This document shows positions 8,320 to 15,217 of a stretch of DNA of 34,143 nucleotides, one piece after another. The translations under genes were made by a program, and so were the position numbers. Within the stretch, counting starts at the first letter, position 1. Each line of letters opens with the position of its first letter. The notes under the pieces were generated by a model. It did not search any database. It was not told where the DNA came from and saw nothing but the letters and a program-made list of their open reading frames with translations. Origin of the DNA: Candidatus Hydrogenedentota bacterium. GTDB lineage: Bacteria > Hydrogenedentota > Hydrogenedentia > Hydrogenedentales > JAJRTN01. The DNA lies in assembly GCA_024278275.1 (NCBI GenBank), contig JAJRTN010000103.1, forward strand, positions 1 through 34,143. Reading direction: 5' to 3'.

Positions 8320-10629
8320 ATGGAACCGCAGTACATCATGACTTGTTCCCTCATTCAACGCGCCACGTTTTTGCTGTTGTTTGTTCTTTCCATCCGGGCC
8401 GACGCGGGTGATTGGCCCCAGTGGCGGGGGGATGCCACGCGCAGTGGGGCGGTGTCCGAAGCATTGCCCCCATCGCTCACGCTGTGCTGGCAGCGGGAAT
8501 ACGGCCCCCGTGAACCGGTGTGGGACGATCCGTTGAACTGGGATCTCATGCGCTATGACCGTGTTTTCGAGCCGGTGGTGGCGGGAAAGCGCATGTTCCT
8601 GGGATTCAATGACAGCGACAAGGTGGTGGCCCTGGACACGGACTCGGGGGAAGAGCTTTGGCGCTTTTACACCGATGGCCCGGTACGTTTTCCCCCGGCC
8701 GTGTGGAAAGAGGGGGTTTTTGCCGTGAGCGACGATGGTTATCTCTATTGCCTGGACGCCGCGACCGGCGCCCTCCGGTGGCGGTTCCGGGGCGGACCGT
8801 CGGACCGCAAGGTGCTGGGCAATAAGCGGCTCATCTCAAGCTGGCCGGCGCGGGGCGGGGTGGTCGTTCGGGACGGCGTCGTCTATTTCGGCGCGAGCAT
8901 TTGGCCCATGATGGGCACTTTTCTTTACGCGCTGGAAGCGGCTACGGGGGAGGTCGTGTGGGTCAATGACGGCACGGGCGCCTACTATATGAATCAGCCG
9001 CACAACTCGCCGTCCTTTGCAGGGGTGGCGCCCCAGGGCGCGCTGGTGGCCACGGGCAACAGGCTGCTTGTTCCCGGCGGCCGGTCGGTGCCCGCCTGTT
9101 TCGATATTCGCACGGGCGACTTCCTCTATTATCGCCTGGCGGACAATGGCAAGACGGGCGGGGCCTTCGTGTGCGGTGGGGGCGACGTGTTTTTCGCCCA
9201 TCACCGCGAGGGCGTCACCAGTATGTATAACCTTGCGGACGGCGAGGCGATTATCCGGGAAGTGGGCATGTTTCCCGTGGTGACCCCCGATACGTACTAT
9301 TTCTCGGGTGATTCCATTCGCGCATATGACGTGGCAAGACTGCACGCCGACCGGAAGGCGTGGAAGAAAAGCCTGCGCTGGGAGTTGGCGGTGGACGCCT
9401 CGGGCGATCTCATTCTCGCGGGCAACCGCCTTTACGCCGGGGGCGGATCGGCCATCACGGCCCTGGCCCTTCAGCCCGAGGGCGCACCCGCCGTGGCGTG
9501 GCACAGGGAAGTGCCCGGCACGGTGGAGCGGCTGGTGGCGGCGGACGGCAAACTTTTCGCGGTGACCCTGGAAGGGGTGATTTACGCCTTCGGCGTCAAG
9601 AAGAACACGACGCCGGTTCCCGCGCACTTCACGCCCCAAAGCGCCCCGGCGCAACGCACCACGCACGCCGACCTGGCCTCCATCCTCTCCCTGGGCGTCA
9701 CGGAAGGCTACGCTGTCTTCCACGGCGCGGGCGATGGTGTGCTGCTGCAAGCCCTGGTTGAAAACACCAGGCTGCACCTGATCGCCACCGACCCGGACCC
9801 GGAGCGGGTGAAGGCGCTCCGTTTCCATTTTGACGCCTTGGGGTACTACGGTAAGCGGGTCTCCCTGCACGTGGGCACGCCGGAGACCTTTCCGGCACCG
9901 CCTTATATCGCCTCGCTCACGGTGGTGAACGAGGGTGATTCCCCCCGCGACCGTGCCATGATCGAGCGTGTGTTTCGGTCCATGCGGCCCTATGGCGGCG
10001 CGGCATGGATCCGTCCTCCCAAAGACGCGGCACCGGGGGCACTTGCTTTGATACTGGCGGAAGCCGGTCTGAAGGGAGCGGAGGCATTGGCCGGGGACGG
10101 TCCCTGGCGCTTTACCCGGAAAGGTCCTCTTGAAGGCGCGGGTACCTGGACCCACATCTACGGTAATATCGCCAACACCACGAAATCGGACGACCGCCTG
10201 GTGAAGCTGCCCCTGGGCGTGTTGTGGTTTGGGGGCAGTTCAAACGCGGATGTGCTCCCCCGCCATGGACACGGTCCGCCGGAGCAGGTCATCGGGGGGC
10301 GGCTCGTTATCCAGGGCATAGATTGTATCAGCGCGCGGGATGTTTATACCGGCCGGGTATTGTGGAAGACGAAACTCGAAGGGCTCGACACCTTCGGCAC
10401 GTACTACGATGCGACCTATGTCGAAGCGCCGACAAGCACGGCCTATAAACAAGTACACATCCCCGGGGCCAACGTACGCGGCACGAATTTTATCGCCACG
10501 GAGGATCGGGTGTATGTCCTGGAGCGCGGGGGCTGTGCCGTGCTGGACGCGGAAACCGGCACGTTCCTGGGCACGTTTTACCTGCCCCGCGTGGTGGAGG
10601 GGGAAAGCGGTCGTCCCCTGCCGCCGTAA
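8320..10629 (+). CDS. PQQ-propeller protein, N-terminal part (in-frame stop)
   Basis: 769 codons up to a TAA at 10627-10629; the same frame then continues without shift to 12087. A signal peptide (LIQRATFLLLFVLSIRADA) is followed by DWPQWRGDATRSG (31-43), the usual opening of secreted PQQ-like propellers. WD/PQQ blades (LDTDSGEELWRF, LDAATGALRWRF, LEAATGEVVWVN) run to about residue 440. About 463-600 resembles a degenerate class I methyltransferase (GAGDG, then ATDPDPERVKALR), an insertion I recall from planctomycete-type relatives. Blades resume with WTHIYGNIANTTKSDD. Likely periplasmic; ligand unknown. I chose ATG 8320 (GGAAG about 10 nt upstream); 8338 is an alternative. Confidence 0.85.
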   Translation: MEPQYIMTCSLIQRATFLLLFVLSIRADAGDWPQWRGDATRSGAVSEALPPSLTLCWQREYGPREPVWDDPLNWDLMRYDRVFEPVVAGKRMFLGFNDSDKVVALDTDSGEELWRFYTDGPVRFPPAVWKEGVFAVSDDGYLYCLDAATGALRWRFRGGPSDRKVLGNKRLISSWPARGGVVVRDGVVYFGASIWPMMGTFLYALEAATGEVVWVNDGTGAYYMNQPHNSPSFAGVAPQGALVATGNRLLVPGGRSVPACFDIRTGDFLYYRLADNGKTGGAFVCGGGDVFFAHHREGVTSMYNLADGEAIIREVGMFPVVTPDTYYFSGDSIRAYDVARLHADRKAWKKSLRWELAVDASGDLILAGNRLYAGGGSAITALALQPEGAPAVAWHREVPGTVERLVAADGKLFAVTLEGVIYAFGVKKNTTPVPAHFTPQSAPAQRTTHADLASILSLGVTEGYAVFHGAGDGVLLQALVENTRLHLIATDPDPERVKALRFHFDALGYYGKRVSLHVGTPETFPAPPYIASLTVVNEGDSPRDRAMIERVFRSMRPYGGAAWIRPPKDAAPGALALILAEAGLKGAEALAGDGPWRFTRKGPLEGAGTWTHIYGNIANTTKSDDRLVKLPLGVLWFGGSSNADVLPRHGHGPPEQVIGGRLVIQGIDCISARDVYTGRVLWKTKLEGLDTFGTYYDATYVEAPTSTAYKQVHIPGANVRGTNFIATEDRVYVLERGGCAVLDAETGTFLGTFYLPRVVEGESGRPLPP
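10627..10629 (+). other. In-frame TAA interrupting the PQQ-propeller gene
   Basis: The frame reads ...PLPP-TAA-WGYIGVYEDLLLGG... with no frameshift on either side. The residues after the stop continue a propeller strand, so the TAA splits what was one reading frame of about 1255 codons. One base change from a sense codon (for example GAA, CAA or AAA) explains it. Confidence 0.85.
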
Positions 10630-10644
10630 TGGGGGTATATCGGG

Positions 10645-12087
10645 GTGTATGAGGACCTGCTCCTGGGGGGCAACCAGTTCGTGCCGTACTCGAAAATGGA
10701 TGGCGCAAAGAGCCTGAAAGCCACGGAATGGAATGATTTTGACCAGAGCGCCAGCCGCGAGATGGTCGCCCTGGATCGGTACACGGGCGCGGTGCGGTGG
10801 CGGGTCAAGGCCGACCACGGTTTTCTGCACAATGGCACGGCGGTGGGCAACGGGGTTATCTACCTGATCGACAAACTCCCCCTGAGCATCGAAAAACGCC
10901 TGAGCCGGCGGGGGACCATGCCGCCGGAATCCTACCGGCTGAAGGCCCTCGACGTGCATACGGGCCGGCCGCTCTGGGAAAAACGGCGCAATGTCTTCGG
11001 CTCCTTTCTGGCCTATTCGGAAGAATACGATATCCTGCTCCAAAGTACCCGGCCCTCACGGGACATGGTGGAGGGCGAAAACGGCGAGCGCATGATTGCC
11101 TACGACGGCAAGACGGGCGCCATCCTGTGGGATCGGCCCAATACGTACGACTCGGTGCCCATCCTCCACGGCGACCGCATCATCTGCCAGGGCGCCATGT
11201 ATTCCCTGCGCACCGGCGAAGTCCTGACGCGCCGCAATCCCCTTACCGGCGTTGTCGCCCCGTGGACTTTTGAGCGCCAGTATGGCTGTAACTATCCCAT
11301 CGCCAGCGAGTATCTGCTTACCTTCCGTTCGGCGGCGGCCGGTTTCTTCGACTTGGGCTCCGATGGCGGAACCGGCAACCTGGGCGGATTCAAGTCGGGC
11401 TGCACGTCCAACCTCGTGGTGGCCGACGGCGTGCTTAACGCGCCGGATTATACCCGTACGTGCAGTTGCGCCTACCAGAACCAGACCTCCCTGGCCATGG
11501 TGCATATGCCCGAAGGCGAAGTGTGGACCTTTAACCTCTTCGCCGAGGCCGCGGCGGACGCGCCCCTGCGTCGACTGGGCGTGAACTTCGGCGCGCCCGG
11601 CGACCGCATGGCGAAGAACGGCACCCTGTGGCTTGAATATCCCGTGGTGGGCGGGCCTTCCCCCGAGATCCCCATCGAAGTGACCGGCGTGAATGACGTG
11701 GCGCCGCGGATGTTTCGTCATCATGCGTCGCTTTTCGGGGGTGACGGGCCGAACTGGGTCATGGCGTCGGGCATCCGGGGCGCGGAGCGCATCCGTCTCA
11801 ACCTGGGAGATGGCACGGAACGGCCGTACACGGTGCGCCTTTATTTCGCGGAACCCGACCTGCTGAATGCGGCGCTTCGGGCGATGACCGTGACCGTGCA
11901 GGGCCGGGCGCGATTGTCGGCCTTTGATGTGGCCCAAGTCGCCGGCGGAAGCCGTCGCGGCCTGGTGCGCGAATTCAAGGGCGTGCTTGTTTCCGACACC
12001 CTGGATATTGATTTTTACATGGATAACAGCAGCGATCTCGATGAGCCGGTATTGAGCGGGCTCGAAGTTGTCGCGGAGGATTGGTGA
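10645..12087 (+). CDS. PQQ-propeller protein, C-terminal part with malectin-like domain
   Basis: Continuation of the gene at 8320 beyond the TAA. As a separate ORF it would start at GTG 10645 with no good ribosome binding site and no signal peptide, so it is unlikely to work alone. It carries further propeller blades (LDRYTGAVRWRV, LDVHTGRPLWEK, YDGKTGAILWDR). A Cys-rich segment follows (SGCTSNLVVADGVL, TRTCSCAYQNQ), seen in PQQ proteins of similar bacteria. The last ~120 residues form a malectin/carbohydrate-binding-like beta domain (PYTVRLYFAEPDLL, GLVREFKGVLVSDTLDIDF). The stop overlaps the next gene's start (TGATG). Either the gene is a recent pseudogene, the TAA is an assembly error, or the stop is read through. 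Confidence 0.8.
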   Translation: MYEDLLLGGNQFVPYSKMDGAKSLKATEWNDFDQSASREMVALDRYTGAVRWRVKADHGFLHNGTAVGNGVIYLIDKLPLSIEKRLSRRGTMPPESYRLKALDVHTGRPLWEKRRNVFGSFLAYSEEYDILLQSTRPSRDMVEGENGERMIAYDGKTGAILWDRPNTYDSVPILHGDRIICQGAMYSLRTGEVLTRRNPLTGVVAPWTFERQYGCNYPIASEYLLTFRSAAAGFFDLGSDGGTGNLGGFKSGCTSNLVVADGVLNAPDYTRTCSCAYQNQTSLAMVHMPEGEVWTFNLFAEAAADAPLRRLGVNFGAPGDRMAKNGTLWLEYPVVGGPSPEIPIEVTGVNDVAPRMFRHHASLFGGDGPNWVMASGIRGAERIRLNLGDGTERPYTVRLYFAEPDLLNAALRAMTVTVQGRARLSAFDVAQVAGGSRRGLVREFKGVLVSDTLDIDFYMDNSSDLDEPVLSGLEVVAEDW

Positions 12088-13253
12088 TGTCAGGCAGGCG
12101 ATGGTGGATCCTGGCGGCGGTGACGCTCGGCGGCACGGCCTGGGCGTGCGATGTGCCGGTCTACCGATGGGCCCTGGAACGCTGGGAAGCCGACCCCTTC
12201 GAGGCGGTCGTGTTTCATCACGGCACGCTGGACGCCGCGGGAGAAACATGCGTCGCCACGCTGGAAGGGGGCCGCGCCGAGGGGGCGAACCTCCTGGTGA
12301 AGACGGTCAATCTTGACGCGCCCATGCCCCCCGCGATGGCGGCGCTCTGGAAGCGCCAGCAAGATCCCGTGACCCCGTGGCTGGTGGTGCGTTTTCCCCT
12401 CACCGTGAAAGGACAGCCGCCCGCCTGGTCCGGTCCCCTCACGACGGAAACCTGCGAGGGCGTCATCCATTCCCCCGTGCGGCGCCGGGTGGCCGCAGAC
12501 CTCATCGACGGGGAGGCGGGGGTGTTCATTTTTCTCGCGTCCGGGGATAAGCGCCGCGACGAGCGGGCGGAAGCGACCCTCGTGGCCGCTTTGAAGAAGG
12601 CCGAGGAACATCTTGAACTGCCCACGGGCAGCACGGCCGCCGCGCCCCAGATGGACGACGCCCTGCTGGACAAGCTGGATGTCCGCTTTTCCATGATCCG
12701 TGTCGCGCGCAACGATCCCCGCGAGCAGATCCTTGTTTCCACCCTGCTGGGCATTGAACCGGATCTGCGCGGCCTCGACGGCCCCATGGCTTTTCCCGTG
12801 TTTGGGCGGGGCCGGGCGCTCTACGCCCTGGTGGACCGGGGCATCAACGAAGACACCATTGCCGAGGCGTGCAGTTTCATCGTCGGCAGTTGCACCTGCC
12901 AGGTAAAAGACCTGAACCCCGGCACCGATCTGCTGCTGGCCGCCAACTGGGAGGACAAACTGGATACGCTCCTTTCGGTGGAAACCCTGGTCCGGGTACT
13001 GCCCCGTCCTTCCGAAATGATCGCCGCCACGGCGGCGCCCGGAAATACGGTCCCGGAGGGAGCGGATCTTTCTTCCCCCTCTCCCGCCGCAACACCGCCA
13101 TCCCTTCCCGCGCCGGCGGATGAAGCCCCGCGGTCCCTGCGCGGCAAAGTGATCCTCAACGTGGGGCTTGCTATACTGGGCGGACTGATCGTGGTCGTGG
13201 CGGCGTCCATCCTACTCGTGTATCGCAAGCGGCACCAGCACGGAGCCATGTAG
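12087..13253 (+). CDS. Single-pass membrane protein of unknown family
   Basis: 388 aa, not recognised. A signal peptide (RRWWILAAVTLGGTAWA) is followed by Cys21 in CDVPVYRWALERWEADPFE. The extracytoplasmic part contains GSCTCQVKDLNPG (C-x-C near 268-270), a Pro/Ala-rich linker (about 320-345), then one transmembrane helix (VGLAILGGLIVVVAASILLVY) and a short basic tail. The two cysteine sites suggest redox or metal chemistry in a periplasmic domain, but that is inference. The start overlaps the PQQ stop by one base (TGATG), with GGAGG upstream. It sits between the PQQ protein and an ABC exporter, so it is probably a partner of that exporter. Confidence 0.82.
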   Translation: MSGRRWWILAAVTLGGTAWACDVPVYRWALERWEADPFEAVVFHHGTLDAAGETCVATLEGGRAEGANLLVKTVNLDAPMPPAMAALWKRQQDPVTPWLVVRFPLTVKGQPPAWSGPLTTETCEGVIHSPVRRRVAADLIDGEAGVFIFLASGDKRRDERAEATLVAALKKAEEHLELPTGSTAAAPQMDDALLDKLDVRFSMIRVARNDPREQILVSTLLGIEPDLRGLDGPMAFPVFGRGRALYALVDRGINEDTIAEACSFIVGSCTCQVKDLNPGTDLLLAANWEDKLDTLLSVETLVRVLPRPSEMIAATAAPGNTVPEGADLSSPSPAATPPSLPAPADEAPRSLRGKVILNVGLAILGGLIVVVAASILLVYRKRHQHGAM

Positions 13254-13260
13254 CCAAGCC

Positions 13261-14550
13261 ATGCATATTTCGCGCCTGGTTCTACAGGAAATACGCTACC
13301 GCAAAATCGATTTCATCCTCGGCGTGTTTGCCGTGGTGGTGGCCTCGGGTTGCCTTGTCGCGGTGATGACCCTGCTTCGCGGCCACGCGCTTCGGGTGTC
13401 GGAACTGATGGAAGCCCAGCAGGCCGACACCCTTTCCCTCATGCGTGCGGCGGAGGATGATTACCGGAAAATCACGAAGAAGCTGGGTTACAACATACTC
13501 ATCCTGGCCAAGGAACAGGACCTCAACGCCTTCCACACCCAGGGCTACGCCACCGCCCTCATGCCGGAAAGCTACGTGGAGCAATTGGTCAACCAAAAGG
13601 TGATGACCATCCGCCACCTTCTGCCCACCTTACATGAGAAAATCACATGGGACGAGCAAGACAATTTACCCGTCATCCTGGTGGGCGTGCGGGGCGAAGC
13701 CACCTTGGCCCACCGTCCACCCCGCAAATCCATGCTCGATCCCGTGCAACCCGGTGAAATCCGTATCGGCAGCGTCCTCCATGAACGACTGGGGTTGAAC
13801 AAAGGCGACACGGTCCGTCTTAAAGGCCGCTCTTTTACCATCAGCGAAGTGCAACCGCCGCGCGGCAATGCCGACGATGTTACCGTGTGGGTTCACCTCA
13901 AGACCGCCCAGGAAATGCTGAAGCGTCCCGGAAAAATCAACGCCATCATGGCCTTAAGCTGTCACTGCCAGGGAGCCCCCATTGAAGGGATTCGCAAGGA
14001 GCTGCTCGCCATTCTCCCCGACACACAGGCCATTGAACTGGTTTCGCGCTCCGTCGTGCGCGACGAGGCACGGTCCCGAGTTTCCGCGCTCAGCCGGGAA
14101 ACCGTGGAGGATCAGGCGGAGCACCATGCCCAGTTGCGCGAGGCCCGTGAAGCCTTCGCCGCATGGCTGGTTCCGCTTATCCTGGTTGGCGCCACCGTTT
14201 GGATCGGTCTGCTGACCCTGGGCAACGTGCGCGAGCGCACCACCGAAATCGGCATCTGGCGCGCGCTGGGCTTTCGTTCCACCCAGGTGCTGCGTATCTT
14301 TGTTACCAGGGCGATGATTACCGGATTGGCCGGCGCGGCCTTGGGCTGGGCGGGCGGGTTCCTCGTGGGCGTGCTCTGGAGTCGCGCCGAAGGCGTTTCC
14401 GCCGGAAGCATCGGCGCAGGCGCCCTGGTGGACATGCCGCTGTTGGCGGCAGTGCTGCTGCTTTCACCTTTGTTGACCGCCCTGGCAAGCTGGCTCCCCG
14501 CCATGCTTGCCGCCCAGCAGGATCCCGCGCAAGTGCTGCGGCAGGAGTAA
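13261..14550 (+). CDS. MacB/FtsX-family ABC transporter permease
   Basis: 429-aa inner-membrane permease with the four-helix MacB/LolC/FtsX layout. TM1 is FILGVFAVVVASGCLVAVMTLL (about 18-38). A large periplasmic domain of about 250 residues follows, then three C-terminal helices (AAWLVPLILVGATVWIGLLTL, MITGLAGAALGWAGGFLVG, LLAAVLLLSPLLTALASWL). The VRERTTEIGIWRALGFRSTQVLRIF coupling segment between TM2 and TM3 is typical. Such transporters are mechanotransducers that move lipoproteins, peptides or envelope factors rather than solutes across the inner membrane. It begins 7 nt after the previous stop and is followed by its ATPase. Confidence 0.92.
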   Translation: MHISRLVLQEIRYRKIDFILGVFAVVVASGCLVAVMTLLRGHALRVSELMEAQQADTLSLMRAAEDDYRKITKKLGYNILILAKEQDLNAFHTQGYATALMPESYVEQLVNQKVMTIRHLLPTLHEKITWDEQDNLPVILVGVRGEATLAHRPPRKSMLDPVQPGEIRIGSVLHERLGLNKGDTVRLKGRSFTISEVQPPRGNADDVTVWVHLKTAQEMLKRPGKINAIMALSCHCQGAPIEGIRKELLAILPDTQAIELVSRSVVRDEARSRVSALSRETVEDQAEHHAQLREAREAFAAWLVPLILVGATVWIGLLTLGNVRERTTEIGIWRALGFRSTQVLRIFVTRAMITGLAGAALGWAGGFLVGVLWSRAEGVSAGSIGAGALVDMPLLAAVLLLSPLLTALASWLPAMLAAQQDPAQVLRQE

Positions 14551-14554
14551 CCCC

Positions 14555-15217
14555 ATGGCACGCATTCACGTGGAAGAACTGTCCAAAGCGTACCCCGGTC
14601 GCCCGGGTGCGGTACAGGCCCTGGATAAGGTGTCCCTCGAAGCGGACGCGGGCGATTTCGTGGCCGTGCGCGGGCCGAGCGGGTGCGGAAAAACCACGCT
14701 GCTTCTCACCCTCGGCGGACTGTTACAACCCACGACCGGCCTGATTGAACTGGACGGCACGCAGCCCTACGCGCTGTCACCCGAGGCCCGGTCGCGTTTT
14801 CGCGCGCAACACATCGGTTTCGTCTTTCAACAGTTTCATCTCGTGCCCTACCTCAACGTGTTTGAAAACGTCCTGGCGCCGTCAGTTGCCGCGCCCGTGG
14901 CGAATGCCCGCGAGCGGGCGCGGGAACTCATCGAGCGAGTCGGCCTGGGCCACCGCGCCGATCACCACCCCGCGGAACTCAGCACGGGGGAGCGCCAGCG
15001 CACGGCCCTCGCCCGCGCCATGCTGAACAATCCCAAGGTGCTCCTTGCCGACGAACCCACGGGCAACCTGGATGAAGGCAACGCGGAGGTGGTTCTGGGT
15101 CACATGAAGGCCTTCGCCGAAGACGGCGGAACCGTGCTCCTTGTCACCCATGAAGATCATGCCGCTTCCTTTGCAAGCCGGACCCTGAAAATGCGTGAAG
15201 GCCGCCTGGCACCGTAA
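14555..15217 (+). CDS. ABC transporter ATP-binding protein (MacB/LolD type)
   Basis: 220-aa ATPase, full length for LolD/FtsE-like subunits, powering the permease at 13261. Walker A is GPSGCGKTT (40-48), the Q-loop is Q92 in FVFQQFHL, the signature is LSTGERQ (142-148; the usual LSGGQ is altered but functional in type), Walker B is VLLADEP (162-168), and the H-loop is H199 in LLVTHED. AGGAG of the upstream gene end lies 7 nt before the ATG. This is the last gene of the PQQ/exporter operon; 132 nt separate it from the next gene. Confidence 0.95.
   Translation: MARIHVEELSKAYPGRPGAVQALDKVSLEADAGDFVAVRGPSGCGKTTLLLTLGGLLQPTTGLIELDGTQPYALSPEARSRFRAQHIGFVFQQFHLVPYLNVFENVLAPSVAAPVANARERARELIERVGLGHRADHHPAELSTGERQRTALARAMLNNPKVLLADEPTGNLDEGNAEVVLGHMKAFAEDGGTVLLVTHEDHAASFASRTLKMREGRLAP

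Follow-up and report, generated by a model that had tools for sequence, protein, structure and literature searches.

Results

Organisation of the interrupted gene

The window analysed here is a stretch of 34,143 nucleotides corresponding to contig C66 of a draft Candidatus Hydrogenedentota genome (5.35 Mb in 200 contigs). On its forward strand, a reading frame extends from 8320 to the TGA at 12085-12087 and is interrupted by a sole internal stop, a TAA at 10627-10629. Translation thus confirms what the first-pass annotation had reported, including the residues on each side of the stop (GRPLPP before it and WGYIGVYEDLLLGG after it). The TAA separates 803 open codons from 485 further ones, and the candidate start positions are 8230, 8320 and 8338.

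Translation, Pfam, an AlphaFold model and full-length homologues together predict that the gene (8320-12087, forward strand) encodes, from N to C-terminal, a signal peptide, a first PQQ/BamB-like propeller, a SAM-methyltransferase-like domain, a second propeller and a malectin-like domain. Both halves match the Pfam family PF13360 and, in a single frame, they display over the full length the domain order of a two-propeller PQQ/malectin family. The model of residues 441-1255 gave matches to BamB, methyltransferase and malectin structures, with a mean pLDDT of 72.5, so that the fold of this part is only moderately certain. The malectin-like domain was recognised by fold comparison only (9ikp_A, E-value 1.5e-8), with no Pfam match. 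The model matches both BamB and tetrathionate hydrolase folds, but the predicted protein differs from BamB/PQQ-type propellers in that two propellers are fused with methyltransferase-like and malectin-like domains. In the model, the TAA (10627-10629) falls inside the second propeller, in a loop predicted between strands 309-314 and 331-337.

The downstream genes form a conserved cassette

The interrupted gene is the first of a conserved four-gene cassette (8320-15217), the three other members of which are intact and lie on the same strand. The second gene (12087-13253) codes for a membrane-anchored protein with no Pfam match; its ATG (12087-12089) overlaps the terminal TGA, in agreement with the TGATG junction described earlier. 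It is followed by an FtsX/MacB-like permease (13261-14550; PF02687, PF12704) and by an ABC ATPase (14555-15217; PF00005). The permease and the ATPase resemble those of MacB/LolCDE-type ABC systems, but the cassette pairs them with a giant propeller protein and with the anchored protein that has no Pfam match.

The assignment of these genes to a cassette rests on synteny in relatives as well as in other phyla. Among 80 homologous loci, many of which end early, the anchored protein was found on either side of the propeller gene in 33, the permease in 24 and the ATPase in 22. The cassette recurs in several phyla, sometimes with another gene order (L033, L036, L040, L041, L043, L059, L060, L067, L089, L120, L126 and others). 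The initial suggestion that translation of the whole operon would be affected by the stop is probably too strong: the effect may be mild, since the second gene has a Shine-Dalgarno sequence of its own, GGAGG, at 12075-12079.

Homologues cross the stop site in one piece

The 80 loci, retrieved from named genomes with an alignment query, come from Hydrogenedentota, Verrucomicrobiota, Planctomycetota, Bacteroidota, Armatimonadota and other phyla; the C-terminal half used alone as query gave no matches. In all 80, a single alignment segment spans the site of the TAA and none has a stop there. The same holds for 16 loci found by whole-genome search within the same order, a set that overlaps with the 80, being partly on the same contigs. 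Full-length homologues of the order each have one open frame, about 1220-1350 residues long. The nearest ones belong to Candidatus Hydrogenedentota metagenome-assembled genomes, two of which (JADLGB010000075.1, L059, and JADLCA010000404.1, L060) share the domain order and the downstream neighbours at about 57-58% identity and, unlike the interrupted gene, have no stop at the site. The alignment column at the TAA is variable and mostly occupied by charged or polar residues, directly before a conserved motif that is usually W-[GA]-[YF]-I-G. From these alignments, the TAA is private to this assembly. Together with the fold prediction, the 80 loci support the view of the first-pass annotation that one gene is cut by one stop, without frameshift, inside one propeller. 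Moreover, two long, strongly coding stretches lie in one frame and the homologues are joined across the site; therefore, the arrangement cannot be due to chance.

These data also answer the question, raised by the same annotation, of whether the TAA could be the true boundary of two adjacent genes, a reading to which we give almost no credence. Genes of this family can indeed be split: a homologue on contig C165 of the same genome has the first propeller in one gene and the methyltransferase/second propeller part in another, and another locus (L042) is split near residue 400. Both splits, however, fall between the first propeller and the methyltransferase-like domain, whereas the TAA lies inside a propeller and no homologue begins or ends at its position. 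The boundary is thus refuted by the homologues, whose genes are naturally split elsewhere. The C165 case (L051) is a paralogue encoded by two adjacent genes, and shows that natural splits of the family fall between domains. Separately, a Bacteroidales homologue (L118) carries a private stop of its own at the position of residue 173, which shows that other drafts also have lone stops in this family.

Absence of decay on either side of the stop

When compared with 88 non-redundant homologues, the protein of the window has none of its near-invariant positions altered, neither the 75 before the stop nor the 56 after it (0/131 in total). Many intact homologues likewise score zero, and this value therefore denotes an absence of decay and not a special constraint. 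With its six nearest full-length relatives, the protein shares 52-56% identity before the stop and 54-60% after it. A decayed pseudogene was rejected, as there is no further stop or frameshift and no near-invariant position is altered. Given the lack of losses and these identities, the stop is either very young or absent from the organism.

Other interrupted genes in the same assembly

A coding-potential scan was applied to 1.6 Mb of the genome, and candidates, partly chosen by eye, were checked with Pfam and NCBIfam. Most same-frame pairs are ordinary neighbouring genes, and the count was restricted to stops that fall within a single recognised domain or equivalog. Such stops were found in PriA, XerD, a TrpD-type transferase (TAG; contig C145, position 6529 of L250), a 2-phosphosulpholactate phosphatase (TAA), a GH65/95-type protein (TAG) and one sulfatase. 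In PriA, a TGA lies between the N-terminal part and the helicase part (L144, contig C196, position 38799), and no other copy scores above the curated cut-off in the genome. In XerD, the stop is a TAG (L153, contig C186, position 19556); again no other copy exceeds the curated cut-off, and a second Xer-type gene, on C61, is intact. The scan gives a lower bound, having missed at least one true case, a sulfatase on C186. A family search provided the second sulfatase with a lone stop, so that among the about 62 sulfatase genes of the genome two carry a lone stop (one TAG, one TAA) and two are frameshifted. The latter have single frameshifts at approximate positions (L058, C80 near 36950; L057, C48 near 33850). 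TGA matches in other PQQ genes (C104, C151) proved to be natural gene ends overrun by the domain match, and were not counted.

The same scan over 0.8 Mb of two better-assembled relatives, selected for their contiguity, yielded no stop inside a recognised domain among ten tested candidates. Seven stops in 1.6 Mb against none in 0.8 Mb would be expected with a probability of about 0.06 under equal rates, a contrast that is only suggestive; the weight rests on the kind of genes hit. Within the genome, none of 65 ABC ATPase domains contains a stop, where fewer than one lesion would be expected. The literature was searched for premature stops in metagenome-assembled genomes, and this returned nothing.

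Readthrough, reinitiation and codon reassignment

Fifteen bases past the stop, an in-frame GTG (10645-10647, forward strand) follows a G-rich, Shine-Dalgarno-like stretch at 10631-10636. Its computed anti-SD pairing energy is -9.7 kcal/mol, against -9.5 for the next gene, which places it among the best 5% of random 17-mers. The original statement that the second half has no start signal is thus not quite right. The same bases also encode the conserved W-G-Y, the GTG is probably a fortuitous candidate for reinitiation, and a product begun there would have no signal peptide.

The stop could be real and nevertheless bypassed, readthrough giving a full-length protein or reinitiation at the GTG a split one. 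The conserved residues retained past the stop, the well-paired GTG and the in-frame stops of other genes of the genome go in this direction, but on balance we regard such a bypass as quite improbable. Programmed readthrough would predict a stop conserved in homologues, while none of the 80 has one, nor do they offer a conserved context. Moreover, TAA terminates strongly when the next base is a T, as is the case here. A reinitiated half would also be deprived of the signal peptide. Furthermore, since TAA, TAG and TGA are all represented among the interrupted genes, no single suppressor or reassignment fits; all three also end intact genes, and reassignment was therefore rejected. ARAGORN, run on 40 sampled stretches (0.8 Mb of the genome), found three tRNA genes, none of them with an unusual anticodon, a partial sample too small to say more. 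It is more improbable still that the organism tolerates scattered stops of all three kinds, priA and xerD included, through unusually frequent readthrough or reinitiation with the genes still working.

Discussion

Secreted proteins combining two propellers with methyltransferase-like and malectin-like domains are here met in an interrupted form, for which the first-pass annotation had left three causes side by side: a very recent null allele, an assembly error or true readthrough. Between the first two, the stops in housekeeping genes shift the balance toward an error or a minor variant. Readthrough finds no support.

It is possible, although less likely than an error, that the TAA is a genuine and very recent nonsense mutation. 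It would then be a null allele in the population, the protein ending inside the second propeller and losing its malectin-like domain while the three downstream genes remain intact. A single lesion in an otherwise pristine gene is what a young null would look like, and private single stops are occasionally seen in homologues, as at residue 173 of L118. The gene is not universal either: in the order, a match to it was found in only 30 of 60 genomes, so that its loss is tolerated there. However, lone stops also break PriA and XerD in this assembly. Nulls of these two genes would not be expected to last, and this suggests a cause that lies beyond the propeller gene.

We favour, with a probability of roughly 60%, a base error or a base from a minor strain in the draft. 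In this explanation the consensus of this draft assembly, which is of the metagenome type, would carry a wrong or minority base at the TAA, and the organism's gene would probably be intact, encoding a secreted two-propeller protein with the frame running straight through the position. It is consistent with the uninterrupted frame of all 80 named loci, with the conservation of near-invariant positions on both sides and with an identity to the nearest relatives that, past the stop, is much the same or higher. What makes us prefer it to a recent null is that lone stops also break housekeeping genes of this draft: lesions in PriA, XerD and the TrpD-type transferase, where nulls are unexpected, are of the kind that errors would produce, and they are accompanied by the two frameshifted sulfatases, with no in-domain stop in 0.8 Mb of the two relatives. 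Conversely, for a short-read assembly the implied density of errors is high, the control genomes are well assembled by choice, the ABC ATPase domains are free of stops, although less than one was expected, and real recent nulls could explain the sulfatases and the interrupted gene. Considering all of this, we infer that the lone stops of this assembly are mainly assembly or consensus errors, this TAA among them. The case resembles that of a metagenome-assembled draft gene hit by one nonsense lesion or consensus error, with one stop in an otherwise intact conserved frame and other lone stops scattered over the assembly, and we found no feature that sets it apart.

Most likely, then, the stop does not reflect a new mode of gene reading, and whichever of the two causes applies, knowledge of translation is unchanged. 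If it is an error, the draft carries scattered false stops, and calls of gene loss as well as automatic pseudogene calls need to be checked against the reads. Should it instead be a real null, a conserved cassette would have lost a large secreted protein very recently. The stop itself is ordinary, and greater interest attaches to the uncharacterised cassette, which may merit a separate study.
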